64,000 bases of DNA from NCBI RefSeq assembly GCF_008271695.1, contig NZ_VKKY01000001.1, positions 1,110,589-1,174,588 on the forward strand. Direction: 5' to 3'. The translations under genes were made by a program, and so were the position numbers. Under the pieces are notes generated by a model. The model was not told the origin of the DNA, did not search any database, and was given only the letters and a program-made list of their open reading frames with translations. Of the stretch, positions 5,210-40,813 are shown piece by piece (the first letter of the stretch is position 1; each line of letters starts with the position of its first letter). Origin of the DNA: Rufibacter hautae (lineage in GTDB: Bacteria; Bacteroidota; Bacteroidia; Cytophagales; Hymenobacteraceae).

Positions 5210-5281
5210 GGCCCCGTAGTTCAACGGATAGAATAGAAGTTTCCTAAACTTTAGATCTGGGTTCGATTCCCGGCGAGGCCA
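5210..5281 (+). tRNA. tRNA-Arg (anticodon CCU)
   Basis: A full cloverleaf can be drawn. The acceptor stem is GGCCCCG/CGAGGCC, the D stem GTTC/GAAT, and the anticodon stem GAAGT/ACTTT with loop TTCCTAA. The anticodon is therefore CCU (reads AGG), giving Arg. The T arm is CTGGG-TTCGATT-CCCGG and the discriminator base is A. CCA is not encoded. The acceptor stem has one C-A mismatch (fifth pair). The T arm and acceptor 3' strand are repeated exactly at 40792-40813, which marks this gene as the attachment site of an island whose integrase gene lies at the far end. Confidence 0.93.
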
Positions 5282-5282
5282 C
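5261..5282 (+). repeat. attL: 22-bp island end repeat inside the tRNA-Arg 3' end
   Basis: The 22 bases, from GTTCGATTCC through the acceptor strand GAGGCC and the next two bases AC, recur exactly at 40792-40813. The sequence includes the T loop, half of the T stem and the acceptor 3' strand, the usual core for tyrosine integrases that target tRNA genes. Confidence 0.85.
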
Positions 5283-6002
5283 ACAAACGCCCCTTAAACC
5301 CAATTATAGGGACATTTTACTTTTGTTCGGATACATTTCGGACACCTAGCTCAATTCTGCTATATTTTCTATTCTTAATTTATACCCAATTTCTTCTTCA
5401 TGAATTGCTTGAGTTCTACTTCTCTCAAGTCCTTTGCTTTCTTTTTTGTGCGCTCAAGCAGAAGATCCAAATCTTAAATTTTCCCTCGAGTAAACAATGG
5501 CTTTATCAACTATTGCTTATTCCCCGACCTTTGATTCCTTTTAACCCTGATGGCAATTAGTATAGATCCTAATATCCATAGTATTAACTCCTAATAACCA
5601 TAGTATTAACTCCTAAAGCGATAATACCTAATCGCAACTTCACCATCATATATTTATAAATTTATCAATAACTATGTTGTTATCCTTTCTTCATACTTAA
5701 ATATTTATATTTCACCGACTTATTGCACTCAAAATTGACTGAAGATCATACAGAGATTTGGCCCCTTTCTTCCCCTACTGTACAATTGCACTAAGCCTTT
5801 TCGCTCTTAATCGAGTGCGCGGCGGAAAAGCCCAGATAAGTTAAACTACAGATACTAAAGTAAGCTATAAATAAGCCATAAAATAGACTTGATTAGCCGC
5901 CCTGTTTAAAATTCCAAAAAACAAGGGTTTGTCTCTATGGTCTCTGATAAAGTGAATTACCAGCGTAAGTTTGGAAGTAATGGTAACAAAAGCATCTCTT
6001 TC
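5283..6002. other. AT-rich left end of the island, no gene
   Basis: No supported gene occurs in these 720 bases. They hold the left arm-type site (5326-5345, TTCGGA-N3-TTTCGGACAC) and a 19-nt direct repeat, CCATAGTATTAACTCCTAA, at 5576-5594 and 5598-5616 with a 22-bp period. Base composition is clearly more A+T rich than the flanking chromosome. The repeats may be binding sites for island recombination proteins; that is inference. Confidence 0.55.
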
Positions 6003-6782
6003 CTAGTTGATTTCTTCCATTTTAAGGGTAGGCGCGCTGCCGTATTTCTCCTTGAATATTCCTTTAAGCATTTCCTTAACCACATCTGCTTTGTCCACAG
6101 TGGTGAGGATGCAGTCGTGGATAGTGGCGATGAAGAAACCCTCTTCCCCCAGCTCGGCCACCTTCCGGCACACCCCGTGGATGATGACCTCGCTCTCCTT
6201 CCGCATCAGCAGGACTGGCAGGGTGCTTCGATTTTTCCCCTTCATCCCCTTGACGGCGGCATACACACTCGGGAAGTGTTCGATGAAGGTCCTTCCAGCC
6301 AAGTTATTGAGATCCTCGGCCTTCCAGCAGGAGCAATAGAGGATGCCCCCGAAGATGGTCTTCTTGAAAGCGTCCCGCTCCTCCTCCTCGATCCCGCAGC
6401 GGTCCATAATGAAGCGGTAGAACCCCCTCTCCCCAGTGAGTTTAAGGTAATGGTCTACGTCTACGGGCAGGCCTTCCGGCCATAGGGAAGAGGCTCGCTC
6501 CAGAAGCATCATTCCCAGCAGGAAGGGCTGGCACTCCCCGATGTCGATGCCCACGATCCTCTGGCCAGTGTCCAGCCGCAGGAACCGCCGGAGGTCCCTG
6601 TTCAGGTTGGTGAGGTTGGTGAACAGGCGCCCCGTCTTTCCGTCCACCTTGAACTCCCATGGGACTTCCCCAATGGTGGCCCTGTGTATCTTCTCCAAAC
6701 GGTACAGTTTCGCGGACACGTTGAAGTCTAAAAAAGTGAGAACATAGGGGGAATGGGGAGAGAGAAGGGATGGGGTATGCAT
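6003..6782 (-). CDS. Family-A polymerase-like palm protein, probable replication protein C-terminal part
   Basis: The 259 residues contain, in order, motifs resembling those of family A DNA polymerases and phage RNA polymerases. First comes TGRLFTNLTNLNRDLRRFL, like the segment before motif A; then VGIDIGECQPFLLG (motif A, Asp); then RDAFKKTIFGGILY (motif B, Arg/Lys/Tyr); and near the end ATIHDCIL (motif C, His-Asp). Proteins with this signature occur on plasmids and integrated elements and are presumed to replicate them. The first 18 residues (MHTPSLLSPHSPYVLTFLDF) look low-complexity and unrelated to the rest. The homologous part seems to start at AKLYRLEKIHR, so the gene looks 5'-truncated. 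The gene upstream on the same strand (7434-8003) may be the missing N-terminal half. Confidence 0.6.
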   Translation of the reverse strand: MHTPSLLSPHSPYVLTFLDFNVSAKLYRLEKIHRATIGEVPWEFKVDGKTGRLFTNLTNLNRDLRRFLRLDTGQRIVGIDIGECQPFLLGMMLLERASSLWPEGLPVDVDHYLKLTGERGFYRFIMDRCGIEEEERDAFKKTIFGGILYCSCWKAEDLNNLAGRTFIEHFPSVYAAVKGMKGKNRSTLPVLLMRKESEVIIHGVCRKVAELGEEGFFIATIHDCILTTVDKADVVKEMLKGIFKEKYGSAPTLKMEEIN

Positions 6783-6795
6783 AATAATAAGGAGG

Positions 6796-6860
6796 TAAGG
6801 GAATGGATTGGGAGTTATGTTAGAATAAGGGAATGGATTGGGAGTTATGTTAGAATAAGG
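6796..6860. repeat. 30-bp tandem repeat, two copies plus a partial one
   Basis: The unit GAATGGATTGGGAGTTATGT plus TAGAATAAGG occurs at 6801-6830 and again, identical, at 6831-6860. Five bases of a further copy precede them. It lies just upstream of the polymerase-like gene. Because 30 is divisible by three, the minus frame of that gene stays open across the repeat, up to a stop at 6876-6878. Confidence 0.9.
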
Positions 6861-6993
6861 GTATGAGGTGGGAAATTAAAGAGGATAAAAAATAGCGCGC
6901 CGTGTGGTGCATAAATGAATAACCAATAACCATCCTGTACAAACCGCTACCGCCGTCAATTTTGAGGAAGACATCCCGCCATCAGGGCTTCCC

Positions 6994-7224
6994 CATTTTT
7001 GCATAAGCTACGCCATTACCTTCAATGAGCTATTAATTAGCAAGTTAAACACCTTAACCCCTTCATTTTTGAATGGGGAACCTAGGATATCCCCTTCATT
7101 TTTGACGGGGGCAGCTACAATAGCGTCCCCATTTTTGAAGAATCACCTACAATAACGTTCTCATTTTTGAAGGAAGCGTTCTCATTTTTGAAGGAGTCAG
7201 CTACAATAGCGTTCTCATTTTTGA
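6994..7224. repeat. Iteron-like array, seven CATTTTTG boxes spaced by about 33 bp
   Basis: CATTTTTG occurs at 6994, 7064, 7097, 7130, 7162, 7183 and 7216; the last six extend to CATTTTTGA. The spacings are 70, 33, 33, 32, 21 and 33 bp, so the last five fall close to two or three helical turns. Several units also share the segment AGCTACAATAGCG between boxes. Some units are near-palindromic (CCCCTTCA and TTGA-N-GGGG). The array sits between two replication-like genes, so a replication origin or a regulator-binding array is the likeliest role. A weaker CATTTATGA follows at 7312. Confidence 0.75.
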
Positions 7225-7433
7225 CCGGCAGGCAGTCAGCTCTGATCGGGTTTGGCTAAGGAAAGCCTTCCATCTTTGGAACGAAGGCAGTTACTTCTGG
7301 CCGGCAGGTGTCATTTATGACCGAGAAGCCCTATGAGTGCAGTGGTGACGAGGTTGGATAGAGCCGGATTCTTTTGACGAGGTAAGGAGAACATCACAGG
7401 GGTGCAACTGAACCCGCGGCCGAAATCGATCCG

Positions 7434-8003
7434 TCAGAAAGCCCCTCCACCGGTTACACTTTTATAGGCTTTCTGCAGGTCAATGCCGAGGCGCCCCAGC
7501 TGCCTGTGGAGGTACCTGAAGGTCTCGTCCTCCGGGAGAATAATAGCTTCCGACGCCTGCACCTTCCTGAGGAGCACCCTGTTGTGGAACGTCTCTATAT
7601 AGAGCCTTTGGCTGGCATAGACCTCGGTGAACCGGTAACCCAGGCATTTGCCCGGCCTGCCCTCCTTGCCTGCCCTAAATTCTCCGTCCAGTTCAATCAC
7701 CCCAGCCTCCTCCAAATCCAAGACGACCCTCTTGCACTCTTTTGTGGTCAGCATTCTCTCAAGGTCCTTGCTGCATAGGTGGACGTAGGGATTTTCCTCC
7801 TCCCCTTTCCGCCCCATGATCCTCTTCTCATTGATGATGTGGCAGACATAGGCGTGCAGATGGTGCTTCTTCCACCTGTGCTCGGGTAGTACGGACTTCA
7901 AGTCCAGCCCAGCGGGCACCAGGAAGTCGAGCGAGGTTCCAGATTCTAGCTTAATGTATTCTTTTTGTTCGGCTTCGGCCACTCCATGGATTCGTGTAGT
8001 CAT
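7434..8003 (-). CDS. Winged-helix-like protein, possible N-terminal half of the island replication protein
   Basis: I do not recognise a named family for these 189 residues. The middle (about 75-130) reads as a winged helix: it begins at the segment YVHLCSKDLERML, continues through a second helix (VVLDLEEAGVIELDG) and ends in a basic wing (RAGKEGRPGKCLGYRF). The C-terminal part (FRYLHRQLGRLGIDLQKAYK) looks like the linker that precedes the palm domain in element-borne polymerase-like replication proteins, and a palm protein lies downstream on the same strand at 6003-6782. The two could be halves of one gene separated by the repeat-rich 650 bp, or a separate initiator and polymerase. It follows the excisionase-like gene after 80 bases and is probably co-transcribed with it. 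Confidence 0.5.
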   Translation of the reverse strand: MTTRIHGVAEAEQKEYIKLESGTSLDFLVPAGLDLKSVLPEHRWKKHHLHAYVCHIINEKRIMGRKGEEENPYVHLCSKDLERMLTTKECKRVVLDLEEAGVIELDGEFRAGKEGRPGKCLGYRFTEVYASQRLYIETFHNRVLLRKVQASEAIILPEDETFRYLHRQLGRLGIDLQKAYKSVTGGGAF

Positions 8004-8083
8004 GTTTCGATTTGTTTGTGATTTGGCAAAGCGGTGGCAGGACCCGCCTTGCGGGCCTGCTACCTTTGGTTTGGAAAGTGTTG

Positions 8084-8491
8084 TTAGTTGTGCCTGCCCA
8101 TGTCGGCGGGCTTGAGCGAGGCCAGCAGCTCACTGCGCTTGAAGTACACCCGGCGGCCTTTCCGACGAAAGAGGATACTCCCATTCTTCTTCCAGGCATG
8201 TATCGTGGCTTCCGTTACGCTGAGCAGCGTTGCCGCTTCTTTTACGGTGAGCAGGGAGTCCTCCGGCTCCTTCGTTTCCTTGGCAGGGAATTGGCTGGAG
8301 ATGGCTTCTCGGACCATCTCCTCAAAATAAGGTTTAAATAGTTCAACCAAAAAGCCGATTGAATTTCCTAATTCAATAGCTATTGATTCTGATAACAAGA
8401 CGGATTTTCCGTCTGCTTTCGGAACCGGTCTCCAGGCTCTAAACACCTGTGTACCGCTTCCTGTGGTCACTCTTTCACCCTTTTTACTCAC
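8084..8491 (-). CDS. Helix-turn-helix protein of the excisionase/MerR-like (HTH_17) type
   Basis: A 135-residue protein. Its last 50 residues form the classic excisionase-type winged helix: LLTVKEAATLLSVTEATIHA, then WKKNGSILFRRKGRRVYFKR, ending SELLASL. The N-terminal 75 residues have no recognisable domain. In Bacteroidota elements such proteins act as excisionases or as small regulators of element genes. It is the first gene of the leftward island operon and has a well-formed promoter (8550-8580). A role in excision with the tyrosine integrase at 39310 is plausible but the gene lies 31 kb away from it. Confidence 0.75.
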   Translation of the reverse strand: MSKKGERVTTGSGTQVFRAWRPVPKADGKSVLLSESIAIELGNSIGFLVELFKPYFEEMVREAISSQFPAKETKEPEDSLLTVKEAATLLSVTEATIHAWKKNGSILFRRKGRRVYFKRSELLASLKPADMGRHN

Positions 8492-8549
8492 GCGGGTTCA
8501 AATAGACATTTTTCATGTTTAAATGGATAAATGATTGATTTAATATGTG

Positions 8550-8580
8550 CAAACCTAAAACAGTAAAATAAAAAAGGCAA
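8550..8580 (-). promoter_or_regulatory. Promoter of the HTH / replication-like operon
   Basis: On the minus strand a TTG (-33) at 8578-8580 is followed after 20 bases by TAGGTTTG (-7) at 8550-8557. This matches the Bacteroidota consensus TTG-N19-21-TAnnTTTG. It lies 58 bases upstream of the ATG at 8491. Confidence 0.65.
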
Positions 8581-9514
8581 GATTCACAGGAGGGGAATAA
8601 AGAGGGTTCAAATTTTCGTAAGAACCTATTACTTAATAATTAACATTTAACTAGGGAGCAATAAAATCAAGACAGGGGGAACTACAGGGAGCACTTCAGG
8701 GAGCACTAAAGAGGCTTTTCTCCAGAATTATTTTTGTCTTTAAACAAGATATGCTCACTCCATAAGATCCCTACAAATTATAAAGGATTATTTTAGAAGG
8801 GAAAAATAAAAGTGGAAATAATTTTGACTTAGTAATTAACAATTTTTAACATTCCCTAAAATTCAGTCCTTCTAAAATCCTTTTAGGATTACGTTTAGAA
8901 ATCCTTTCAACCGTTCTGTCTCAGCAATTTCTTATATTAATCCTATATAAAATAAATCTTTTGCTTATTATGATATTTTTTATATGATACTAATAAAGGC
9001 TTAGATTTCTTTTGGCATTTACTACCTAAAAACTTGAATCTATGGAGATCAAGTATTGGATTAAAGAGTATGCAGGAAAAGGAACTTGTTACGCCATAAA
9101 TCAAGAATATAGCGATCAAATTTTAGTTGTTGATCAGTGATGTTTGAGGTTAGGTAAACTGTCGGGGTTGGACCAATCTAACCCTTTATGGGAAATCCAT
9201 TTTTAACAAATTAGGTCCTTTGTCCAACTACTTGCAAGTAATTGTGGAAGGCCTTTACATTATAACATGAAACCTACTCCTCAAAAAGTGATTTTGCCAC
9301 AAGCATTATATGACAGGCCTTTATTACCTTATGCTTGACAACTGCAAGACTCCAAAGGGCCTCCACTCTGCTCTACCTCCGTTATCGCAGAAGGTGCAAG
9401 ATTATCGGACAAAGAAATTTAGGACTTTTGCAATCAAAATTCAGTTGCAGAGAATTACTACGATTAGCATTCCATGGTTCAACTCCCTACGCGACCACAG
9501 TTAAATTTTTAAAT

Positions 9515-9545
9515 GCCTGTTTTGCAAAGCATTACAGGCGTTTTT
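9515..9545 (+). terminator. Terminator-like hairpin with T run
   Basis: GCCTGT at 9515-9520 pairs with ACAGGC at 9534-9539 and is followed by GTTTTT. No plus-strand gene precedes it. It may belong to a lost tRNA whose 3' end seems to remain at 9474-9498. Confidence 0.5.
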
Positions 9546-9791
9546 CTTTTACTGCGCACACATATACGTACAACTTCTGCTTCCCTGCTGCATTTTATCC
9601 CTTAGAAAGACCTGTATTAGGGTGCGTAATTTTCTGCGCATCTCCCCTTTTTACGCACCAAAGAGCCAAGAAAAAGTAGCTTGTACAAGGGAGACCTTTG
9701 TGTTTTCCCCTTTGATTTTCGGTTGATTTTCTGAAAATGGCTCCTAAACACACGAGGGTCTTGCCAGCGGCAGGAAGCTGAAAAGGTATAA

Positions 9792-9835
9792 AACAGAAAC
9801 GGGTTGGCCGGAAAACCCGCCAACCCGTTTCTGTT
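9792..9835 (-). terminator. Terminator of the alpha-glucan operon
   Basis: A perfect 17-bp stem (9792-9808 with 9819-9835), then TTTTA on the minus strand, lies 27 bases after the stop codon of the last gene of the operon (GH97). Confidence 0.85.
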
Positions 9836-9861: not shown

Positions 9862-12051
<2,190 letters not shown>

Positions 12052-12111
12052 TCAGTTTTGAAGGATAAATGGGGGTGAGATGTTATTATTTTAGAAGCAA
12101 CACCTGATCTT

Positions 12112-14619
12112 CTATTTAGTGATGTTGACTTCTTGAGCCTTCCCAGAATCTGGCAATTTGACGTAAATAATATTACTTTCCTTATCCCAAGACCAAGCAG
12201 CTTTGAAGTCATTTTCTAAGCCTTCTTGCAGGGACTTCAGTTTGTCTTTTTTCACCTTAGTTGAGCCAAGGGTAACAGATTTAGGTTCTTGGCTTGCGTG
12301 CAGCTTGATCACCAGATTGCGGGGCTTCGTGGAAGTGTACCCTTTCTCTTCGCGCTCATTCACGCGCACGGTCCAGTTATGTTTACTGGTGATGCTGGTA
12401 AATTTGGTCTTCGCGTAGATGTTTCTCAGGTAATTGTTCGTTTCGCCGTCATCTTCATACAATTCAAAAGATGCGGATTGGCCCTCGTTGGCCGGAAACA
12501 CCTCTAACATGATGGGGTAAGTGGGTTTCTCATGCAGGTACTGCATCAAGGGCATCATGGGAATAATAGAGCCTTTCTTCACGAAGACCGGGGTTACGTC
12601 CAGGGGGGCATCATAGGTGATCCATTGGGAACCGTTGTAAACGGTTTTCCCATCCTTGAAATCTATCCATTGCCCTTCGGGCAGGTACACTTTCTTAGTG
12701 ACGGCGCCTTTCTCTACTACCGGGGCCACCAAGAGTTCTTTCCCGAACATGAACTGGGCATCGGCTTTGAACGTCTCCACATCATTGGGGAACTCCAGTA
12801 GCAAAGCCCGCATGAGCGGGACACCGGTGTCATGCGCCTCTCGTCCGTAGGTGTAGATGTATGGGAATAGCTTGTATTTTAACTCAATAGCCTCTTTCGA
12901 TCTCCTTTCGGCATCCGGGCCGAATAGCCATGGCTCCACGGCAGTGTTTCCCTCGTGGTGGGCGCGGCTCAACGGATTGAATACGCCAAACTGCATCCAG
13001 CGGGTATAAAACTCGGCCATGGCCGGATAATCCTTGATATCCCCGCAATAGCCCGAAATATCACAGGCCCAGAATGGAATCAACCCCATGCCCGCCGATA
13101 AACTCATAGGAATCTGGTTCGCTAATTGCCCCCAACCCTCCAGCACATCACTGCCGTTACCAGAGTCCCCGGACCATCCGAAGGTGTAGCGCTGCAGACC
13201 TGCGTATGCGGCCCTAGTCATCTGGAATATCCGCTGATTGGGATTGTGTTTCTCGAACTGTTCTTTTACTACTTTGTCCCAGGTGAGGCCGTACACATTG
13301 TGGATTTCCTCGTGCATTCCCAAGTGGTGTCTCATGTTAAGGCGGTCCACAGCATCTTCATTGCTCCAAGCAGGTTCACCCATGTCCGTCCAGAAGCCTT
13401 TCACCCCGTCGGCCAGTGGTTTTTGCTGGTAGGCACCCCACCAATCGGCCACGCCGGGTTTGGTGAAATCCACTACACCGCAGTTACCACCCCACGGCCA
13501 AGGCATGTCATAGGATTTCCCGGTGCGGATATCGGTGGCGAAATAACCCAAAGAATCAGCCTCACGCCATTGTTTCTTGTTTGTCTGGGAAATCACCGGA
13601 TCTTGGGAGACAATCATCTTGAATCCATCGGCGGCCAAGTCTTTCAACATCTGTTTCGGATTCTGGTAACCGCGTCCCCACTCAAAATCCTGCAGGTTCT
13701 TGGTCCAGCCTATGTCCTGGTACATGATGTCGATGGGAATCTTGCGGGCGCGGTATTCTTTGGCTATGTCACGGGTCATGTCTTCGCGGGTCATAAGACC
13801 CCGGCTCTGGGAGAACCCAAACGCCCACTTAGGCGGCATAATAGGCTTGCCTGTCAATTGGGTATAGCCTTCGATGATCTGTTTGTAGTTATTGCCGAAG
13901 ATGAAGTAATACAGCATCTCGCCGCCGGGCGCCTCAAAAGAAAAGTAGTCATTTGACTCGCTACCCAACTTGAACTCCGTCTTGTGGGTGTTGTCAAAGA
14001 AGATGCCGTACTTGTAGCTGCTTATGAAAAACGGAATGCTTTTGTAGAGCGGGTCTTGGGTGGGGCTGTAGCACGGCTGGTCGCTGTTCCACATTTTGTA
14101 GGTCAGCCCCCGTTTGTTCAAAGGTCCTGATTTCTCCCCTAACCCGAAAAATTGTTCATCGGCCTTTAATGACTTGTACGCCACTAAACGATCCCCTTCT
14201 TTCACCAGGCCATGATCTTTGAAATCGCTGAGTAGTAGTTTCTGGTACTTATCAAAAATCTGAAGCTGAAACGGGTCTTTGTTTACCCGTATGCGTAAAA
14301 GATCAGTGAAAATCTCGTACACCTGTGCCTGCTCATTCACCTGCAACGTTCCCACATCCTCCAGCTTCTCATTTATGACGGCGAAGGACTCATTGTTGCG
14401 CTTGAACACGCCGGTGGGTTCGTACCACACCTTCACCACACCTCGACTGCACAGTTCCAGCAAGACTTTTTGGTTGTTCTGCGCGGTGAAAACTACCTGG
14501 TTGCCGGTTACTTTATACGAACTGACCTTACCTGGGCTTAAGCCTTTAGGTGCTGTTTGTCGGGCAAAAGCAAGACTGCTTAGCAGGAGAAACGGAAGAA
14601 AAAGGAAATTGTATTTCAT
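12112..14619 (-). CDS. GH31 alpha-glucosidase
   Basis: A secreted 835-residue GH31 enzyme with signal peptide MKYNFLFLPFLLLSSLAFA. The N-terminal beta-sandwich carries the GLGEKSGPLNKRG segment of the family (about 159-171). The catalytic barrel has the nucleophile Asp412 in GFWTDMGEP and the acid/base Asp485 in WSGDSGN. Proximal and distal beta domains follow, plus a C-terminal DUF5110-like stretch. GH31 members release glucose from alpha-1,4- or alpha-1,6-linked oligosaccharides. Given the GH66 partner, isomalto-oligosaccharides are a fair guess. A hairpin (14774-14803) lies before it, between it and the six-hairpin gene, so its level may be set below that of the upstream genes. Confidence 0.93.
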   Translation of the reverse strand: MKYNFLFLPFLLLSSLAFARQTAPKGLSPGKVSSYKVTGNQVVFTAQNNQKVLLELCSRGVVKVWYEPTGVFKRNNESFAVINEKLEDVGTLQVNEQAQVYEIFTDLLRIRVNKDPFQLQIFDKYQKLLLSDFKDHGLVKEGDRLVAYKSLKADEQFFGLGEKSGPLNKRGLTYKMWNSDQPCYSPTQDPLYKSIPFFISSYKYGIFFDNTHKTEFKLGSESNDYFSFEAPGGEMLYYFIFGNNYKQIIEGYTQLTGKPIMPPKWAFGFSQSRGLMTREDMTRDIAKEYRARKIPIDIMYQDIGWTKNLQDFEWGRGYQNPKQMLKDLAADGFKMIVSQDPVISQTNKKQWREADSLGYFATDIRTGKSYDMPWPWGGNCGVVDFTKPGVADWWGAYQQKPLADGVKGFWTDMGEPAWSNEDAVDRLNMRHHLGMHEEIHNVYGLTWDKVVKEQFEKHNPNQRIFQMTRAAYAGLQRYTFGWSGDSGNGSDVLEGWGQLANQIPMSLSAGMGLIPFWACDISGYCGDIKDYPAMAEFYTRWMQFGVFNPLSRAHHEGNTAVEPWLFGPDAERRSKEAIELKYKLFPYIYTYGREAHDTGVPLMRALLLEFPNDVETFKADAQFMFGKELLVAPVVEKGAVTKKVYLPEGQWIDFKDGKTVYNGSQWITYDAPLDVTPVFVKKGSIIPMMPLMQYLHEKPTYPIMLEVFPANEGQSASFELYEDDGETNNYLRNIYAKTKFTSITSKHNWTVRVNEREEKGYTSTKPRNLVIKLHASQEPKSVTLGSTKVKKDKLKSLQEGLENDFKAAWSWDKESNIIYVKLPDSGKAQEVNITK

Positions 14620-14773
14620 AGTAGGAATAGGAACTCGGTTATCAAAGGGTGTTTTCAGGCTAGATCCCTAAAAGGAGGCTTAAATCAAATTATGCAGTTT
14701 TACATTCGTGCGGATGATAACTCATGCAAATACAGGGTTCCTTGGCGTTATAAGATCAGGAGTTGAAAAGAGA

Positions 14774-14803
14774 GGGTTCTGCAGTAGTGTTGCTGCAGAA
14801 CCC
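14774..14803 (-). terminator. Intra-operon hairpin, possible attenuator
   Basis: An 11-bp perfect stem, GGGTTCTGCAG with CTGCAGAACCC, lies just after the stop of the six-hairpin glycosidase gene, with only a weak T-rich tail on the minus strand. It may act as a partial terminator or mRNA stabiliser inside the operon. Confidence 0.5.
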
Positions 14804-14813
14804 CTCATGCTCA

Positions 14814-17543
14814 TTATTGTACCTTGATCAAGCGCATATAGTCTAACATGGCGCGATTTACCTCTCCGTTCATGTTCTCGTTAACTGGGTCAAAGGCCAG
14901 GGTCAGTTCATGACGGCCTTTCTCCAGTTTTACCTGCACGGCATTGGTGAATCCCCAGTCTGACCATTCGTCTGTGCCTCTTTGCGGCAGCACAATTGTG
15001 CCCAAGGGATTGTTTCCTTGCTTCAAGGTGCGGATAGCACACTTGTTAGATGTATTAATAGGACCTTCACCGTTGGCGTAACGGAAGTCAATGGCATAGA
15101 TGCCGCTTTCCGGCACAGACACAGTAAATGCTGGGGCCGTATTCTTGGTTTTACTGATTTCCACAAACCCCTTTCCTGAGAAACCTTTATATGCTTGGGT
15201 AGCCTTAGCTAGGCTGGTCTCTGCTTCATGAATGATTTGCTTCCCGCTTGGCACTACCGCTATTGGCTCCGTCGCGAAGGATTCATGTCCTTTGGTGTCT
15301 ACAGCAACCACCTGGTACTCGGCATACTCATTGGGATTGACTTTGAACAGGGTCTTGTCTGTTTCCTCTATCCGCTGTCCATTCTTAAGTACCAGATATT
15401 GTTTCACGCCCTCTGCGGTACTCCAGGAAAGCGTGGCGTGGGCGAAGGTCACCGTAGGAGCAGCCGGGGCGAACTCAACGGCCACCCGGTTTACTTTACC
15501 CTCCCCAAAGGGTTTGTTGGCTAACACGATCTTCACCTGGTGTTGCCCTGACAGATTAGCCGGAATCTCTGCGTTGGGCAACGGCTGATTGTCTATGGTA
15601 ATGGATTGGATTTGATCACCGTAGCCTTCCATTTCAATGTCCAGCACGGCCTTGCGGTACTTAAAGTTGGTAAGCTGGCGCTTTCCGCCGAAGGCCTGCG
15701 GCACCACGGGTTTAAACACCAGGCTTTTGGCGCGGTAATCCATACCAAAGAGGACTTTATAGGTCATGCTCAGGTTCCCGGCCAGACTCCAGAGCATGTT
15801 GCTGGAATTAATCTGGGTGCCGGCGTAGTCCCCATTGGTGGCCACAAAGTTTTCTTTGTTGGTGAGCCATAAGGCGGCCGGACGGTAAATGGCGCCCATA
15901 CTCTCCACCAAGGCGGCTTCGTTCCCGGCTTTCGCGGCAGCCAATGACCAGTACGACTGCACAAAGGGCCAGGTGGCGTTATTGTGGTACGGCGGAATGT
16001 TAGGAATCTGCGGATAGATGTTGGTGATCCCAAACGGGGTCACCGGGGTACTGGCCACAATCTGCCTCTGTTTACCTCCATCAGCGATGTCAAACAGCAC
16101 GGTCAAGGCTTCACCAAGTGCTTCTGCTTTTGGGGAAAGGGTCAGGTAGTTCCGTCCGTACAGGTATTGTCCGTAATAGCCCTTCTCGGGCATCCAGAGG
16201 TAATCATTGATACCTTGCTTCACCTTTAGAGCAATCCCTTGGTATCTGGCCGCAGCCGGGGCATCTTGTAGCAAACCCGCCATTTCTGCCAGAATTTTAT
16301 TGGCTTGGTAGAAAACCGCGTTTGTACCCAAGTTCTCCGAAGCGTAAATGTCCACAGGCTGCATCCACTCAGGGTAAGTCTGCTCCCGCCAATCCAGGAA
16401 AGAGGACTCGCCCCGGAACAAGCCTGTTTTAGGATCATACACATTCTTCAAATCATCTTCCATGGTGTTTTTGATGATCTGATACGATTCCCGTAGCCAC
16501 GCTTGGTCACCAGTCACTTTGTACAGTTCCCAGGCGGCCACGGCCCACACAATGCGGTCTGAAGAGGCTGGATACGCGCCGCCGGTACCAGTGTCCTGGA
16601 CGATGCGTCCGTTCTTCACTTTCCGCATAAGGCTGTACTGCGCAACTCTGGGTTGCAGTGCCGCCATGGAAAGGATGATGCTGTAGCTGATGTCCCTAGT
16701 CCAGACACCGGCCCATTCTTTCCCGGTTCTGAACGTACTGTCCGGCTCTACGGCGTTGATCATTTCTTCCAGGGCCTGGTTGTACAAGGCATCTACTACC
16801 GGATAGTCTGATCTATACTGCGGGAAAGCGGAGGTGTTGCGGGTCATCTTCCAAGTAGAGGCCGTGACAGTTTCATCCTGCGATGGGTTCAAAACCAAAT
16901 CCAGTTCATAGATGCCGTCTTTGTCAGCGTCTTTCAGCTCCAGGTTCTTGAAGTTGTGCAGGTTGTCAAAGTCCCAAGTGAGGGGAGCCGTTCCCCCTGC
17001 CACAAAAACACCCTTGAAGTCTTCCTTGTAGATTTTGTCGCCGTTGAAAGCGGTATAGAAGCCTTTTTTGGAAAACGCCTCTAAAACAGGGCGCATGTCC
17101 AGCCGGATTTTTAGATTGGTGTTGGGGGCCAGGTAGGTATTGGCCGGGATTTTGGAGCCGATAGTGTTCTGCGTCCCGAAGACGATCAACGGCATTTCAC
17201 AACGGCCATTTTCTGAGATACAAGCAAAGGAATGATCTCTACCCGACAACATTTCATTGTCCTTGCCATTGATGCTGAACTTGAATTTCAGCTCAGGACT
17301 CAAAAACTCCTTGGCCATGCTTTTGTAATTGGAGACTAGTTCTGTGGGAGAAAGAACTTTCGCCTCAAAATGGCCCTGAACAACCCGGTTCGGGTAAATG
17401 GTGTACTGTTCTGATTGGTAAATGGGCTGCTCTTGCACAACCGGCGTTGCAGTTGCCACAAGGCTGTTTCCTTTTTGCATTTGGCAGGCACCAAAAAACA
17501 AGAGAGATAGCCCCAGACTTAATTGTACAGATTTGTTGCTCAT
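14814..17543 (-). CDS. Six-hairpin (alpha/alpha)6 glycosidase lipoprotein with C-terminal CBM35/CBM6-like domain
   Basis: The start was placed at the internal Met (17543) because it gives a clean lipoprotein signal, MSNKSVQLSLGLSLLFFGAC, with Cys20 as lipid anchor. That gives 909 residues. An N-terminal beta domain (to about 240) precedes an (alpha/alpha)6 barrel with WAGVWTRDISYS, GGAYPASSDRIVWAV, FLDWREQTYP and HNNATWPFVQSYWSLA. This pattern resembles GH63/MGH1-like and related six-hairpin glycosidases. I cannot assign a CAZy family. The C-terminal 135 residues (from HEAETSLAKA to the end) look like a CBM35/CBM6-type binding domain; in other bacteria CBM35 accompanies alpha-1,6-glucan enzymes. 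Its acid and base residues were not identified. It sits between GH66 and GH31 in the same operon, so an alpha-glucan or a branch on it is the expected substrate. Confidence 0.75.
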   Translation of the reverse strand: MSNKSVQLSLGLSLLFFGACQMQKGNSLVATATPVVQEQPIYQSEQYTIYPNRVVQGHFEAKVLSPTELVSNYKSMAKEFLSPELKFKFSINGKDNEMLSGRDHSFACISENGRCEMPLIVFGTQNTIGSKIPANTYLAPNTNLKIRLDMRPVLEAFSKKGFYTAFNGDKIYKEDFKGVFVAGGTAPLTWDFDNLHNFKNLELKDADKDGIYELDLVLNPSQDETVTASTWKMTRNTSAFPQYRSDYPVVDALYNQALEEMINAVEPDSTFRTGKEWAGVWTRDISYSIILSMAALQPRVAQYSLMRKVKNGRIVQDTGTGGAYPASSDRIVWAVAAWELYKVTGDQAWLRESYQIIKNTMEDDLKNVYDPKTGLFRGESSFLDWREQTYPEWMQPVDIYASENLGTNAVFYQANKILAEMAGLLQDAPAAARYQGIALKVKQGINDYLWMPEKGYYGQYLYGRNYLTLSPKAEALGEALTVLFDIADGGKQRQIVASTPVTPFGITNIYPQIPNIPPYHNNATWPFVQSYWSLAAAKAGNEAALVESMGAIYRPAALWLTNKENFVATNGDYAGTQINSSNMLWSLAGNLSMTYKVLFGMDYRAKSLVFKPVVPQAFGGKRQLTNFKYRKAVLDIEMEGYGDQIQSITIDNQPLPNAEIPANLSGQHQVKIVLANKPFGEGKVNRVAVEFAPAAPTVTFAHATLSWSTAEGVKQYLVLKNGQRIEETDKTLFKVNPNEYAEYQVVAVDTKGHESFATEPIAVVPSGKQIIHEAETSLAKATQAYKGFSGKGFVEISKTKNTAPAFTVSVPESGIYAIDFRYANGEGPINTSNKCAIRTLKQGNNPLGTIVLPQRGTDEWSDWGFTNAVQVKLEKGRHELTLAFDPVNENMNGEVNRAMLDYMRLIKVQ

Positions 17544-17671
17544 AAGGGTTTGCAGGTAAATCTTTTTAAAGGAACCTTTTAGGCACAAGTGGCCCCGCGT
17601 GATAGGCCACGCCGAACCTATCGCTTCTTTTTTAAGAGTTTGTAAAATTTGATTTTTAAAGAGTCAATCTC

Positions 17672-17705
17672 TTTCAGGGCTGTTTTTAGGAAAACAGCCC
17701 TGAAA
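17672..17705. repeat. Interspersed palindromic repeat, best-preserved short copy
   Basis: A perfect 15-bp hairpin, TTTCAGGGCTGTTTT and AAAACAGCCCTGAAA around the loop TAGG, lies between the GH66 gene and the six-hairpin gene. It is one of about ten copies of a repeat family found between genes across the window. Confidence 0.85.
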
Positions 17706-17766
17706 CGAGAACTACCAGGAACAAGAGATTGCCACTGATTGCGACCCATGCACTTTGGTGTATGAC

Positions 17767-19542
17767 TTAATATTCTACCACAATCATGCTCCAATACTGT
17801 AGTTCCGGTAGCGTAAAGCTGACACTGTTACCGTTCTGGGCAAAGTTCAGTGATCTGGAAGCGCCGCCGATGTTATCGGGTGACGCGCACCACACTTTCT
17901 TCACTGTTCCGGTGGCCGTGAATGTTAGCTTAGAATCCTTTACCTGAAGGGGTGCCGTCTGGATGCCTGTGTTGTCTCTCCAGTTCTGGGTTTTGGCGTT
18001 TTTAAAGTTGATCAGATGAATGACCTGATTGGTGCCTACCTGCTTGCCAATTGCCGCTACGGCTCCAGTGGAGGCTGGCCAGTTGGCTATGCTCATTTTG
18101 CCGTCGGTAGAGGAGAGCGTCACGTTGTTGAACGTACCGCCATCACGCAATATATTTTGGTAGGCCACCAAAAAGTCATAGTAGTTAACCATGGCATTTT
18201 TAAGATCCTGCTTCATCACCAGATTGCTGTTGGGGAAATACTCGTTGGCAAGCATGTGTTCTCCCAGTTCTAGGTGGGAACCGCCAAAAGCGAAGATCAC
18301 GGCGTTGGTCATTAGGACCGAAGGTGTATTGAAGAAGCCTGCATTTTTAGACAAATCGTAGTTCACGTAGGCCGCCAGCACCGTATTCTTGGTGTTGTTG
18401 CTGAGGGTGTTGTTCTGCTTGATTAGGTTCGCCAAATCATTATAGGTGTCAAACGGGCTCCAGACCTCGGTGTAAAGGAAATCGGCATTAGACTCTGCTA
18501 TTCCCTGTTGCCCGTATTGAGCTACCGCGTTCAGAACAGCGTATTTGTTTGGTGCTTCAGCTTTAACCGCATTAATGAACGGCTTAAAGGTAGAAGCTAG
18601 GTTTAACGCACTTCCATCGTACTTATAGGTAGTGCCTCTGTTGCCTAGTTGGTCCATGTGAAAACCATCAAACGCCAAGGCCTGATACACTTTCTTGTTC
18701 TGGTTGATTAAGTACTGCTGCCAGCCGGTATTGGAAGGGTCTAGCAGGTAGATGTTACTTAAGAACGGAGCGCCCAGCGGATGGAAATCTCTGTTAGTAC
18801 GGGTGTTGTCTTTGTACACAAACCATTCCCTGCTCACGCCATCAGCCTCGGCGTTATCCCAAGCCCCGTAGATCAAGTTGTACTGCATGGCCTTCATATT
18901 GAAGCCATGCGCGCTATTGATATATTTCTCAACAGTGTTGAAGTAAATGTCCCTGTTGATGATGTCTTTCCAAGTGCTTGCCGGGGCTGAGCCATTCATG
19001 GGAAGGGGCATATGGTGCTTGTTGTGCCAGTCGTAGAACTGAATACCGTTGATGTGATGCCGGTTGAGGTTGGTTGTGACTGCGTTTACTTCTGCATTAT
19101 TTAACTGAGGAAACTTAGACACAAATCCGTACCGCGGGAATTTGACCCAGTCGGATGAAACATCCACCCCTATAGTGGCATGTATAGTTTCTGTGTCATT
19201 GGCAGTGCTGAACACCTCGGCTAGGTAGCCCCTAAAATCTGTGGCGGGCGCTTTCCAGGTCCAGGTACTAGCCGTAACCGCTGCTTCACTCACCACTTGG
19301 TTCAGGTATTTGTACCTGATTTTTGCATTAGCGGGCAATTTGGAGAAATCAACCGTAATGGTGACTTCACTCCCAGGCGCATAGGCTGCTTTATCAGTGG
19401 AGATAGTCACGTTCCCGTACGCCGGGGTACCAGGGTTTACTGGCACTTCTGTTGGAGTGGGGTCAACATCACTACTGCTTTCTTTGCAACCCAATCCTAT
19501 TGACAGCACAAGCAAACAAGACCAAAAAAGTTTAGATGTCAT
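17767..19542 (-). CDS. GH66 dextranase-like lipoprotein
   Basis: A 591-residue surface or periplasmic lipoprotein. The signal peptide ends in LSIGLGC with Cys19 as lipid anchor. An Ig-like N-terminal domain (about 40-130) precedes a GH66 (beta/alpha)8 barrel: RYGFVSKFP, HHINGIQFYDWHNKHH, FDGFHMDQLGNRG with the likely nucleophile Asp297, and FLYTEVWSP with the likely acid/base Glu359. A C-terminal beta domain follows. The GH66 family contains endo-dextranases and cycloisomaltooligosaccharide glucanotransferases, all acting on alpha-1,6-glucans. No CBM35 insertion is seen in the barrel, which favours plain dextranase. This enzyme gives the best clue to the operon substrate. It is preceded by a small GATACCGG/CCGGTATC hairpin at 19556-19590. 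Confidence 0.9.
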   Translation of the reverse strand: MTSKLFWSCLLVLSIGLGCKESSSDVDPTPTEVPVNPGTPAYGNVTISTDKAAYAPGSEVTITVDFSKLPANAKIRYKYLNQVVSEAAVTASTWTWKAPATDFRGYLAEVFSTANDTETIHATIGVDVSSDWVKFPRYGFVSKFPQLNNAEVNAVTTNLNRHHINGIQFYDWHNKHHMPLPMNGSAPASTWKDIINRDIYFNTVEKYINSAHGFNMKAMQYNLIYGAWDNAEADGVSREWFVYKDNTRTNRDFHPLGAPFLSNIYLLDPSNTGWQQYLINQNKKVYQALAFDGFHMDQLGNRGTTYKYDGSALNLASTFKPFINAVKAEAPNKYAVLNAVAQYGQQGIAESNADFLYTEVWSPFDTYNDLANLIKQNNTLSNNTKNTVLAAYVNYDLSKNAGFFNTPSVLMTNAVIFAFGGSHLELGEHMLANEYFPNSNLVMKQDLKNAMVNYYDFLVAYQNILRDGGTFNNVTLSSTDGKMSIANWPASTGAVAAIGKQVGTNQVIHLINFKNAKTQNWRDNTGIQTAPLQVKDSKLTFTATGTVKKVWCASPDNIGGASRSLNFAQNGNSVSFTLPELQYWSMIVVEY

Positions 19543-19605
19543 AATAAGGTAATTTGATACCGGCCTTCCTACTGGAGAAAGTCCGGTATCATGTAAGTAA
19601 GGGAA

Positions 19606-21078
19606 CTATTGCTTTTCAAATTTGATGGTTTCGTGCAACACATCAATGGTGATCTTGTAGTTGCCAGCTTGTGCCGCGGAGATCTTCCATTTGTTGTCTG
19701 GCTGACCACCCGGTACAAATTTCATCTCTGTGCTAGTAATGTCTTCGTTGGCTGTAACGGGCATGTAGTAATCACCATTGAAGTCTTTCTGCAACGGGAA
19801 CTTGAACTCTCCCGCTTTAAGCGCACCAGTGTAAGTGAAGATGTTAGGGTTGACGGCATCACGGACCAAAGGCGTGGCATTACCAATGTCCCATCCGTTA
19901 GGGGTGGCATCTCCTACAAACCAGATTTGGGTAGGCGGCGTGAACGGCTTGATATCAATCTCCATGGTTTCCAGATCCAGCCTAATCTTGTAAGCACCCG
20001 GTGTAGTGATTCTCCACTTCAGGTCTGGGCTGCCGCCTCTCACGAGTTGAACTCCGGTCAACGAGAGGTCCTGGTTGTTAGCTAATGGCATATAGAAATC
20101 ACCTGCCCACCCATTTCCTGTGAAAGTTGGTATCTTGAACTCTCCGGCATTGAGCACTTCATTATAGGTAAACACGTAAGGATTTGACCGGTCTACCCGC
20201 ATTTTATTTGGGTTGTCAATGTTCCACCCATTAGGGGTAGCGTCTCCTACAATCCACAGCTCAGAATAAGGCGGAGCGGAGCCTTCTACAATGGAAATGG
20301 TCATGTCCAGTAGGTTCACAGAGATGGCGTACAATCCGGCTTGGGTAATGGTGAATTTATCATCCGGCTCAGCATCTGAAGTGCGGTACACCAGTTGAGT
20401 GGGAGACGTTCCTTTGTTATAAGAAGGAAGGAAAGCGCCTTTGGTGGTAATAAACTTAAAATCCCCAGTCTTGAGTCTTCCTTGCCAGGTGAACCTGCCC
20501 GGAGCAGAAGGGTTTAACGTCAAAGGCGTGGCATCATCGGCACTCCAACCGTTCGGCGTGGCGTCCCCAATCAGAAACAGAGTGGTGGAGACTGGTTGGT
20601 ATGAGGTTACTTTCAGGGTAGTAGTGGTAGAGTCTGACAAATCTGTACCAGAAACTTTCGAAACTACTTTGGCTTCAATAGTAGTCTCCACCCCGGGGGT
20701 AAGGTTCAAGCCTAGCAAAAGGTCATTAAATTCCTTCACGCTGTACTTCTTCTGGAAAATGGCTTTGCCCATATCGGCTACCACGGAGTTCTGGAAATTG
20801 TTTCCTTGCCGGTCAAGATAAAGGGTGTAGGAAATAGAATTGTTGGTACCGTAATTAGAACCGGTAGTCCAGTTGAAAGCAACGGCCTCGCTGGCTGCTA
20901 TGGTTTCCTGCAGGACCACGCTCTCTTTGCTGGTAGAAAGGGCCAGTGGCGCATTTACACCTTGGTCAAACTCGTCGTAAATATCGGTTTTACAAGAAAC
21001 CCCAAATAAGGTGACCAGTAGGAGCAGCACGGCAGAGAACCAGCTTGCTTTTTTAGGAAGGATTAGAATATTTTCCAT
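19606..21078 (-). CDS. SusE/SusF-like outer-membrane glycan-binding lipoprotein
   Basis: The ATG at 21078 was chosen because it gives a lipoprotein signal ending in LFGVSC (Cys29); an earlier in-frame ATG lies at 21105. The N-terminal 130 residues are a SusE-type Ig-like domain. After it come three similar starch-binding modules, each opening with the phrase VGDATPNGW or IGDATPNGW (near residues 175, 280 and 395) and ending in a GxYKI or AISV strand. Three such modules are typical of SusF/SusE proteins, which hold glucan at the cell surface without cutting it. The gene is the third in the susCDE block, 30 bases after susD. Confidence 0.9.
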   Translation of the reverse strand: MENILILPKKASWFSAVLLLLVTLFGVSCKTDIYDEFDQGVNAPLALSTSKESVVLQETIAASEAVAFNWTTGSNYGTNNSISYTLYLDRQGNNFQNSVVADMGKAIFQKKYSVKEFNDLLLGLNLTPGVETTIEAKVVSKVSGTDLSDSTTTTLKVTSYQPVSTTLFLIGDATPNGWSADDATPLTLNPSAPGRFTWQGRLKTGDFKFITTKGAFLPSYNKGTSPTQLVYRTSDAEPDDKFTITQAGLYAISVNLLDMTISIVEGSAPPYSELWIVGDATPNGWNIDNPNKMRVDRSNPYVFTYNEVLNAGEFKIPTFTGNGWAGDFYMPLANNQDLSLTGVQLVRGGSPDLKWRITTPGAYKIRLDLETMEIDIKPFTPPTQIWFVGDATPNGWDIGNATPLVRDAVNPNIFTYTGALKAGEFKFPLQKDFNGDYYMPVTANEDITSTEMKFVPGGQPDNKWKISAAQAGNYKITIDVLHETIKFEKQ

Positions 21079-21108
21079 ATCTGTCAAGGAGAATGAATAG
21101 GCCAATGA

Positions 21109-22623: not shown

Positions 22624-22641
22624 GCTTGTTCGTTTAAAAGA

Positions 22642-25710: not shown

Positions 25711-26275
25711 AAAGGTGTGAAGTATGTTATGTTAGCTATTAAAATTTGTCATTTTGTTAATTTTGACAGGCTGTTCGTCAGAGGAGAAGCGCAGGAATAG
25801 ATGAAATGATGTGCGTACTTAATCCTTGTTTACAAATTTGAGATTCTTACTAGCCAAGTAGAAGAAAGTGAAATGGAAAGTAACTATTTTCAGCGGTGAA
25901 CCATGTTTAACTAAATGAAAATCAGTGTTTTAAAATTTAAAAATACCTTATTGGGGTATTGGAAAAAGTAAATGGTTTTTAGCTTAAAAAGCCCAATTTG
26001 TGTTGATTTTCATCCCATTCTTGATTTTTTAGACATTGATTAAGCCTCTACTAGGGAAGCATTACTATCGCAATGGTTTTAACAAAATCTCAAAAAGGCA
26101 TCTTGTCTTCGACTGGAAATATCATGTACCAAAACAATAGCAGGTCCTCAGTTGGCGGCTTGGAACTGGATAAAAAAGGAAACCCCTTTTCGGATTCTTT
26201 TTGTGAAAAGAGCGCCAAAAAGGGGTTTGCTGAATTTCTGGTTAAGAGGTGGCTTCAGATATTCTCAAGGCCAGC
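25711..26275. other. Regulatory gap between susR-like and susC genes, with a terminator
   Basis: No gene is supported in these 565 bases. At 26180-26228 an 11-bp stem (AAACCCCTTTT/AAAAGGGGTTT, 27-nt loop) is followed by a T run on the minus strand and should end the susR-like transcript. The remaining 480 bases form the long, A+T rich upstream region of susC and must contain its promoter and any activator sites. I did not find a consensus -7 box or an obvious repeated operator there. Confidence 0.6.
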
Positions 26276-39309: not shown

Positions 39310-40608
39310 TTAGCTTACCACCTTCATTTGTGCTGGCAATCGCCAAATGTCGTTCATTTCGTTCTCGGTCACCTTCTCGCTGATCTTGATGTACTTCTTG
39401 AAGGTGGCGTAGTTAGTGTGACCCGAGATCCGCATCACCACCTCCGGACGCATGCCCTTCTCCAGCGATAAGGTGATGAAGGTGCGCCGGGCCGTGTGGG
39501 TCCCGATGAACTCATACTTAGGCAGGGCTTCGCGCTCCACGACAGTGACTACCTTATCCTCCACTGTCCTTTTGCTGTTGGCCAGTTTGTCGCTCCCCAG
39601 CTTCCGCGTGACGGTGGTCGGCTCGTCGATACCCACCATTTCGCAGAGGTCTTTTATGTATTCGTTCGACTTCTGGTTGCTTATCACGGGCAAGGGCTTC
39701 GTATCCCCCTCGTACTTCTCAAGTATTGCGAGTGCAAAGCCGTTCAAGGGCACAATGTGGTGGGCCTTGTCGGTTTTGTCATCCCTCAACAGCCACCTAT
39801 TTCCTTTTACATCACTGCGCCGCAGCTTAGCTATATCAGAATACCGCTGGCCGGTGAAACACCCAAAACAGAAGCAGTCGCGGACCCTGTCCAGCTTACT
39901 GCCTAATGGCAGCTCGGCATTGTACAGCCTCATCAACTCCTCCTCCGTAAGGTAGACCATCTCTGCCTCTCGTTGGGCTACTTTGAATTTCCTGAAAGTA
40001 AGGTTCTGGTGCAGCCCCCTATCATTCGCCCAGGCCATGAAAGTCTTGAGGGTGGCGAAGTCTTTCCAGAGGGTATTGTCCGTGTGCTTCTTCTCTTGGA
40101 TTAGGTAGGCCCGGAACAGATCGAAGAAGCGCATATCTATGGCCTCGAAGGAGAGTTTGAAGCGAAGGTGTCTGCTGAACCCGTCCAGGTGGTTGTGGAG
40201 GATCTTATACTTCGCTAGCGTGGCCTTGCTCAACTCGGTGGACCTGACCGCTATAAAACCCAGCAGATGCTCCAGGAGGCCCACCACCCGCTCCGGCTCC
40301 TTCTCCTCATGGTGCGACAGTACCGCCTCCCTCAGCTCCTCGAAAGAGACATTCCCATCGGCAGTGAGCCGGTTATATAGCTTGAGCATTTCGCTCCGGC
40401 GGTTGTCCAGCCAGGCGTTGAACTCCACACAGCCGGTGAAGTTCCGCTTCACATGGTTGCCGTTCTTATCCGGCTTGGTGTTCCAGTACTTGGGATTGAT
40501 GTACTGACCGGTCTTTATCTTGATAGTCTGCTTGCCGGTCCTCAGGAACAGGTAGATGGCGGTATCCCCCTCCGCCTTAGGTTTGTCCAGGTAGTAGTTC
40601 AGTGTCAT
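39310..40608 (-). CDS. Tyrosine recombinase / island integrase
   Basis: A 432-residue phage-type integrase of the Bacteroidota class. It has an N-terminal arm-binding domain (MTLNYYLDKPKAEGDTAIYL), a SAM-like core-binding domain (about 105-215), and a catalytic domain with all key residues. These are Arg in CFTGQRYSDIAKL, His371 and Arg374 in HTARRTF, His397 in SGHTNYATF, and the nucleophile Tyr406 in KKYIKIS. It should recombine the 22-bp core in the tRNA-Arg(CCU) 3' end; the right core copy is 184 bases upstream of its start. A palindrome (TTTCCGAA-C-TTCGGAAA) and an arm-type repeat lie directly upstream at 40645-40673 and may serve both regulation and recombination. The gene appears intact. 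Confidence 0.95.
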   Translation of the reverse strand: MTLNYYLDKPKAEGDTAIYLFLRTGKQTIKIKTGQYINPKYWNTKPDKNGNHVKRNFTGCVEFNAWLDNRRSEMLKLYNRLTADGNVSFEELREAVLSHHEEKEPERVVGLLEHLLGFIAVRSTELSKATLAKYKILHNHLDGFSRHLRFKLSFEAIDMRFFDLFRAYLIQEKKHTDNTLWKDFATLKTFMAWANDRGLHQNLTFRKFKVAQREAEMVYLTEEELMRLYNAELPLGSKLDRVRDCFCFGCFTGQRYSDIAKLRRSDVKGNRWLLRDDKTDKAHHIVPLNGFALAILEKYEGDTKPLPVISNQKSNEYIKDLCEMVGIDEPTTVTRKLGSDKLANSKRTVEDKVVTVVEREALPKYEFIGTHTARRTFITLSLEKGMRPEVVMRISGHTNYATFKKYIKISEKVTENEMNDIWRLPAQMKVVS

Positions 40609-40644: not shown

Positions 40645-40673
40645 TTTCCGAACTTCGGAAATATTTCGGACAC
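40645..40673. promoter_or_regulatory. Palindrome and arm-type repeat upstream of the integrase
   Basis: TTTCCGAA-C-TTCGGAAA is a perfect 8-bp dyad (40645-40661). It overlaps the repeat TTCGGA-N3-TTTCGGACAC (40654-40673), which matches 18 of 20 bases of 5326-5345 at the other island end. These are candidate integrase or excisionase binding sites and possible autoregulatory operators. Confidence 0.6.
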
Positions 40674-40791: not shown

Positions 40792-40813
40792 GTTCGATTC
40801 CCGGCGAGGCCAC
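40792..40813 (+). repeat. attR: second copy of the 22-bp tRNA-Arg 3' end
   Basis: The sequence is identical to 5261-5282. Upstream of it there is no tRNA 5' half, so this copy is the displaced original 3' end of the tRNA gene and marks the right border of the island. Confidence 0.85.

Follow-up and report, generated by a model that had tools for sequence, protein, structure and literature searches.

A box array between the two parts of a TV-Pol-type polymerase gene as a putative replication origin of a tRNA-Arg island in Rufibacter hautae

TV-Pols were predicted in 2008 to be the primase-polymerases of mobile elements (Iyer, Abhiman and Aravind, PMC2579912, available in part). In the literature covered, TV-Pol biochemistry is confined to the member from SCCmec, an element whose replication in vivo was still to be demonstrated in 2020. 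No report of an origin inside a TV-Pol gene or between its parts was found in the open-access literature searched. Described here is an array of seven boxes between two parts of a TV-Pol-type gene of Rufibacter hautae, within a stretch of 64,000 nucleotides (the window; contig NZ_VKKY01000001.1, positions 1,110,589 to 1,174,588). On balance, we favour the reading that the array is the iteron-type replication origin of an integrative island, recognised by the N-terminal part of the gene product (N part) and primed by its TV-Pol-type polymerase part (C part). The features concerned are as follows.

5210..5282, forward strand: tRNA-Arg(CCT), the last 22 bases of which (5261-5282) are attL (ARAGORN, Rfam tRNA, exact 22-bp repeat)
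5326..5345, forward strand: TTCGGATACATTTCGGACAC near attL, a possible integrase arm site
6003..6782, reverse strand: C part, predicted TV-Pol-type family-A polymerase domain, 259 aa (AlphaFold, Foldseek, VIA, conserved residues)
6731..6890, no strand assigned: tract that is purine-rich on the forward strand and thus pyrimidine-rich on the coding strand (composition scan)
6994..7224, forward strand: seven CATTTTTG boxes with GCTACAATAGC dyads between some of them, putative iteron origin (sequence counts, resampling)
7434..8003, reverse strand: N part, 189 aa, with homology to the N-terminal domain seen in relatives; proposed as the initiator domain that binds the boxes (alignments)
8084..8491, reverse strand: xis-like HTH_17 protein (Pfam HTH_17, 9e-11; PHROG excisionase and transcriptional regulator, 8.7e-8)
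39310..40608, reverse strand: tyrosine integrase (Pfam Phage_integrase, 2.4e-12, Phage_int_SAM_5 and Arm-DNA-bind_5)
40792..40813, forward strand: attR, an exact 22-bp copy of the tRNA-Arg 3' end (repeat search; empty site in the congener G014)

The family studied here resembles the TV-Pols, as set out in the available part of PMC2579912, in that both comprise uncharacterised proteins of 400-600 aa in mobile elements with a superfamily-A core that carries a hairpin Arg, two Asp and an RxxxK motif. Both have an N-terminal globular domain, which can be a stand-alone neighbour gene, and a lambda-type integrase or resolvase nearby, and Bacteroidetes are among the members listed there. In contrast, that account, as far as available, describes no origin, the only repeats mentioned being long direct ones at either end of a single element. 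The D5-like helicase of TV-Pol systems was not found here among the 18 island proteins scanned, and neither was any replicative helicase among the same 18 proteins with Pfam, a set made up of the larger ORFs; the island restriction enzyme has a 'helicase spacer' domain only.

The CCPol-MP-Cch2 system of SCCmec likewise belongs to a chromosomal island and combines an A-family polymerase lacking exonuclease domains with a small partner protein, and iterons in the form of direct repeats lie next to its operon (PMC7581432, in the part available). There the iterons are bound by the helicase Cch2, whereas no helicase was found among the 18 island proteins here. CCPol keeps a Glu equivalent to E710 of Pol I (same source), whereas Gln takes this position in 97 of 97 relatives here, as judged by motif spacing and not by superposition. 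MP has been modelled as an OB-fold binder of single-stranded DNA (PMC10061031, available in part), whereas the N part here is without a match to any Pfam family.

In PICI/SaPI replicons, xis is followed by a primase and an initiator (sometimes fused) and these by an iteron origin 3' of rep, and an integrase gene is present, an arrangement that the one proposed for the island resembles (PMC6092414, in the part available). They use a primase and a Rep helicase (same source), whereas the island has an A-family polymerase. They also differ in that the array here lies between two parts of one gene.

Origins of the pSK41 type lie inside rep. In RepA_N replicons such as pSK41 and for the RepA of PLE, iterons, often with internal dyads, are bound by the N-terminal domain, which we count as a likeness, and chromosomal RepA_N genes are linked to recombinases (PMC7145576, in the part available). 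In contrast, no Pfam RepA_N match was found in the N part of 40 members of the family, and the C-terminal part here is a predicted polymerase.

The initial annotation had placed the array in an integrated island; this was borne out by the flanking sequences, which show the island to be site-specific. The last 22 bases of the tRNA gene recur exactly at attR, and an empty site was found in the congener G014, where the left flank runs up to the 3' end of the tRNA gene (C1:1178712), the right flank starts at 1178733 and the two flanks overlap by 22 bases. Hence, the island extends from 5283 to 40813 (~35.5 kb), and it has the integrase, the flanking repeat of the tRNA end and the empty site in a relative by which integrative tRNA islands are recognised. 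Similar 20-mers to TTCGGATACATTTCGGACAC are present near attR (40654-40673) and beside the tRNA gene of a paralogous element (see below). From the coordinates, the order in an excised circle would be xis - N part - boxes - pyrimidine tract - polymerase - attP - int.

The C part had no match in Pfam. Its AlphaFold model, built from a 32-row alignment, has a mean pLDDT of 77 and a pTM of 0.74, with residues 1-43 unreliable. All 50 matches listed by Foldseek in the PDB were family-A DNA polymerases, the best being the Taq Stoffel fragment (E 3.7e-6). VIA gave Bacillus Pol I tied with Taq (Z 12.4, rmsd 3.6, 199 residues); Z values below ~13 can be common for mostly helical models, and here every row listed belonged to one family. 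The polymerase-like gene that had been noted next to the array is thus assigned a polymerase fold by both comparisons.

Residues R52, D80, Q85, K140, E196, H222 and D223 are invariant in 97 of 97 aligned relatives, i.e. 41 of 41 bacterial ORFs (one of which is the paralogue) and 56 of 56 viral ones. R52 lies in a predicted strand (residues 50-53) and would correspond to the hairpin Arg of TV-Pols, and D80 and D223 to the two catalytic Asp of an RRM-like palm, the model matching Taq and Bacillus Pol I in fold. The RxxxK of the fingers is represented by R136 and K140; the Lys is kept in 97 of the 97 relatives and the Arg in 59 (31 of 41 bacterial, 28 of 56 viral). In the region of the N-terminal two-helix thumb module, the pLDDT of model residues 1-43 is below 50. 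The mobile context of TV-Pols is present in the form of the integrase and the resolvase of the island. The spacing R136-x3-K140-x3-F144 resembles motif B of Pol I. The Pol I residues E710 and F762 are given in the available part of PMC7581432.

No sequence profile linked the polymerase family to polymerases in the PDB, and one profile gave unrelated kinases at E 0.04. The C part shows most of the described TV-Pol features, yet the link between the family and polymerases comes from the predicted fold and the motifs and not from sequence profiles. It is classed here as a predicted TV-Pol-type family-A polymerase with the catalytic residues in place. As a yardstick from the published TV-Pols, one candidate ORF of Microcystis phage LMM01, chosen by eye, was compared directly; it came third of 58 ORFs by score, and the similarity was not significant (E 0.096). 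The family HMM had no match in LMM01.

In 41 distinct bacterial ORFs (447-711 aa from stop to stop, including the paralogue), the N-terminal part is homologous to the 7434-8003 protein and the C-terminal part to the 6003-6782 protein. Two further bacterial loci of the polymerase family are broken or degenerate. As the N and C parts form one ORF in the relatives, the window copy is split around the array. The initial annotation had taken the 7434-8003 protein as a gene separate from the polymerase-like one and both as flanking replication-like genes. The two are not unrelated genes: they are parts of one gene, which the paralogue and 40 relatives carry as one uninterrupted ORF. Alignment A1 had 21 rows, two of them from the window; it left out L023 (degenerate, 143 aa) and L026 (broken in two), which are also absent from the residue counts in the 97 relatives, as well as L020, L024, L025, L027, L028, L029 and L030, all seven of which are included in those counts. 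The alignments for structure modelling had 32 and 33 rows drawn from the sequences retrieved, and the model of the full-length protein was of low quality over the N region. Pfam and PDB profiles gave weak and scattered matches for the N part, the best being TFIIIB B'' (E 0.006) and TcpK (E 0.17), and NCBIfam gave two single-member matches for whole proteins of the family (best E 0.0058).

The CATTTTTG boxes start on the forward strand at 6994, 7064, 7097, 7130, 7162, 7183 and 7216, with gaps of 70, 33, 33, 32, 21 and 33 bp, exactly as first reported. On both strands of the whole window there are nine copies against 4.5 expected, and nine or more were found in 4 of 100 shuffles; the total is unremarkable, and it is the clustering that is remarkable. 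First-order resampling of 6950-7249 (n = 5000) never gave more than two copies, and no exact 8-mer elsewhere in the window occurs more than three times per 231 bp on one strand. The second element reported between several boxes (GCTACAATAGC; two exact copies and one degenerate) is present in three of the six intervals, as exact AGCTACAATAGCG in two (dyad core at 7114 and 7200) and in degenerate form in one (7146). The core of AGCTACAATAGCG, GCTA-CAA-TAGC, is an inverted repeat.

Helical phasing of the array had also been claimed. It holds between neighbouring boxes (3.14, 3.14, 3.05, 2.0 and 3.14 turns, 33 bp being 3.14 turns at 10.5 bp per turn) but drifts along the array, and is looser than had been supposed. 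Over the last six boxes, a period of 10.5 bp yields a vector strength of 0.61 (p ~0.11 by comparison with random gaps) and one of 10.8 bp yields 0.97. A test with free period gave p 0.0008, which overstates the phasing because several gaps represent one duplicated unit.

The array lies between two ORFs, in DNA that has stops in all three frames of the gene strand. A DnaA box and an AT-rich melting region are common, though not universal, in iteron origins. No strongly AT-rich region was found inside the array (AT 0.5-0.6), and two DnaA-box patterns had no match in 5283-9800 or in 12200-17900 of the paralogous locus L037. A cluster of direct repeats beside an initiator-type gene, as in iteron origins, is present, with the N part as the putative initiator. 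On the polymerase side, the strand skew of the window reaches its maximum in the 100 bp at 6731-6830 (79% purine on the forward strand; 64 kb scanned), and the skewed tract 6731-6890 contains a 30-bp direct duplication (6796-6855).

The same genome has a second element at a tRNA-Arg(CCG) gene (contig C3, locus L037), in which the whole gene is one ORF of 603 aa counted from the start that matches the window N part. The open frame, 709 aa from stop to stop, extends well upstream of that start; by itself it is therefore weak evidence that the 603-aa fusion is made. Neither an attR (in 30 kb) nor, with the window integrase as query, an integrase was found for this element, which may therefore be a remnant.

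Between the two elements, identity is 86% in xis, 80% in the polymerase and 63% in the N part. In 100-bp steps along the gene direction, which set the resolution, it is 85-88% in xis and the intergenic DNA, falls at the start of N to 54-70%, is lost in an unalignable linker and is 73-90% in the polymerase. The dN/dS ratios, each a pairwise mean over both lineages, are 0.39 for xis, 0.29 for the N part and 0.26 for the polymerase, with dS of 0.29, 1.30 and 0.58, respectively; the split in the window copy may be a decay that pairwise dN/dS cannot reveal.

At the place that matches the window array, the paralogue linker carries seven TGCA-N4-TGCA dyads, yet these are unrelated to the CATTTTTG boxes. 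They are all of the dyads in the 30 kb read, and resampling of C3 gave at most two in 5000 trials; the window has one such dyad, distant, at 61703. From the N part to the polymerase, the gaps are 21, 23, 19, 21, 30 and 72 bp in C3 and 33, 21, 32, 33, 33 and 70 bp in the window. Thus, both arrays end in a long gap (72 and 70 bp), followed by the most strand-skewed tract of the locus; in the paralogue, the skew is greatest in 100 bp that lie between the array and the polymerase part (pyrimidine content of 89% on the coding strand; 20 kb). Vector strength at 10.5 bp is 0.89 for the first five C3 boxes and 0.69 for all seven. That both arrays have seven boxes and a long last gap is a parallel between just two cases and could in part be luck, and the skewed tract may simply have been inherited by both paralogues. 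Divergence is shared by the N part and the array but not by their neighbours, as would be expected of a DNA-binding specificity and its sites. A layout kept with a different sequence also fits the type of array first proposed, an origin bound by an initiator. With both elements, a single genome offers a pair of candidate origins along with a candidate initiator domain and a naturally occurring difference in specificity.

A single-sequence search found relatives of the 6003-6782 protein in 25 of the 98 genomes from nearby taxa, and a profile search found them in at least 90 of the 204 genomes of the family. No close relatives of the window polymerase part outside its own genome were found in bacterial genome contigs, viral contigs or plasmids, and the array is therefore closely comparable with that of one paralogue only. 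In the surroundings of 40 relatives (~17 kb each; loci picked from the listed matches, mostly high-scoring and non-random), an integrase was present in 16 (12 within 3 kb) against 1 of 20 controls, by a profile grown from matches in those same 40 loci, and a tRNA gene in 14 against 1 of 20, the controls being stretches taken at arbitrary positions from the same set of genomes. On these counts, the relatives sit in integrated elements. One Hymenobacter plasmid carries a relative and, in addition, its own annotated replication protein with repeats beside the latter.

A tight array (span 180 bp) within 1 kb of the gene was found in 7 of the 40 relatives. There were eight such clusters against 2.6 expected (p 0.013 at 180 bp), a weak enrichment that depends on the threshold (p 0.055, 0.048 and 0.25 at spans of 120, 250 and 400 bp). 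Related islands that lack the array while still mobile would, in the initial annotation, speak against an origin; no tight array was seen within 1 kb of the gene in 33 of the 40 loci, but the scan was insensitive and also missed the array of the paralogue. For 15 of the 40 relatives, the most skewed 100 bp lay no more than 1 kb from the gene, compared with ~8.4 expected by length, one row of this count (L102) probably being a masked stretch.

In L082, L084, L096 and L099, distinct arrays of short repeats occur at a distance of ~300-1000 bp from the TV-Pol-type gene. In two congeneric relatives, L017 (2246-2340) and, in the matching linker, L018, the linker-coding DNA contains a G-rich purine tract. 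The L017 linker also has a 13-base inverted repeat and a 21-bp tandem duplication, and no inverted repeat was found in that of L018; perhaps these linkers conceal other origins. The proteins of L024, L025, L027, L028 and L030 have ~55-110 extra residues after motif A, and the insert in L024 (a gene also present in L110) is encoded by repeated DNA, AAAGACATT / AGACATTGAAA.

The family also has members in records of huge uncultured phages (595-735 kb) and in 57 IMG/VR contigs, 56 of which gave a usable ORF. In the phage contigs L142-L198 and L138-L141, the family protein has two domains joined by a linker that is short or absent. PHROG searches with three viral members gave no match below E 0.03, a mostly viral family profile had no match in the PDB, and a search for arrays near phage members gave nothing consistent. 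The TV-Pol-type polymerases of islands are thus tied to a protein family of huge phages that is unnamed in the libraries tried.

The order of the circle resembles the modules of PICI and SCC, and the N part and the array have co-diverged; therefore, an origin is favoured, and the main rival is an operator. In the latter case, the N protein or another island regulator would bind the boxes and control transcription of the polymerase, any replication starting elsewhere. The array is indeed upstream of the polymerase ORF, in a ~650-bp gap able to hold a promoter, and the joint divergence of N part and array would be expected equally of a repressor with its operators and of an initiator with its iterons. 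However, the array of the paralogue lies inside an ORF that is open from the N part through the polymerase, where an operator between genes makes less sense, and seven boxes over ~190-220 bp with an adjoining skewed tract exceed the usual needs of an operator. An operator is considered unlikely.

Less likely still, the array would be the decayed linker of a split gene, a functionless minisatellite grown by slippage and duplication. The gaps of 33 and 21 bp do resemble duplicated units, the stretch has stops in every frame and the linker of the paralogue is wholly different. Against this, dN/dS of both halves is well below 1, and the boxes are exact while the spacers have diverged. Moreover, the array of the paralogue, unrelated as it is, matches that of the window in box number and in the long last gap, and its gaps of +2 and -2 offset each other in frame with the DNA unit kept. 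Finally, a role as accessory recombination sites, used by the integrase with Xis or by the serine resolvase, is very improbable: the island encodes both recombinases and direct-repeat arrays can serve in this way, but the array is ~1.7 kb from attL, a separate 20-bp motif lies near the att sites and one type of Xis (86% identical) could hardly read two unrelated arrays.

With the array as the replication origin of the island, the integrase and the xis-like protein would excise the 35.5-kb element, and the N part would bind its cognate boxes and open or mark the origin. The polymerase would then be brought to the adjoining pyrimidine tract and start synthesis there, priming de novo by analogy with CCPol-MP. 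In the paralogue, another N part with another array would keep the two elements from cross-firing in one cell. A broader proposal, which is possible if speculative, is that a polymerase gene holds in its middle an exchangeable cassette of origin specificity, made up of the N domain and the array. Islands would swap the N domain and its cognate boxes between conserved xis and polymerase, and several islands could replicate in one cell without interference. The polymerase, with Gln for Glu at the sugar-gate position, would prime de novo on the pyrimidine tract, and initiator, primase and polymerase would be one protein family common to islands and huge phages.

The island further carries genes for a serine resolvase, an endonuclease and an MmeI-type IIG restriction-modification enzyme (34554-38027; PADLOC REase_MTase_IIG, score 1554.8). 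A polysaccharide-use locus at 9862-27949 includes GH97, GH31, a rhamnosidase-like hydrolase, GH66, SusE, SusD, a TonB-plug receptor and DUF6377. GH66 presumably acts on a dextran-type sugar, and use of such a sugar may be mobile with the island. Outside the island, to its left, 1772-2992 encodes a fusion of an HD domain and a PycTM (Pycsar effector-like) membrane domain. Two congeners have other insertions at the same tRNA site (G001 C83, ~28846-65375; G012 C1, ~2557532-2589961), with ~32-37 kb from a 5' tRNA fragment beside the left flank to a whole tRNA match, which in G012 adjoins the right flank.
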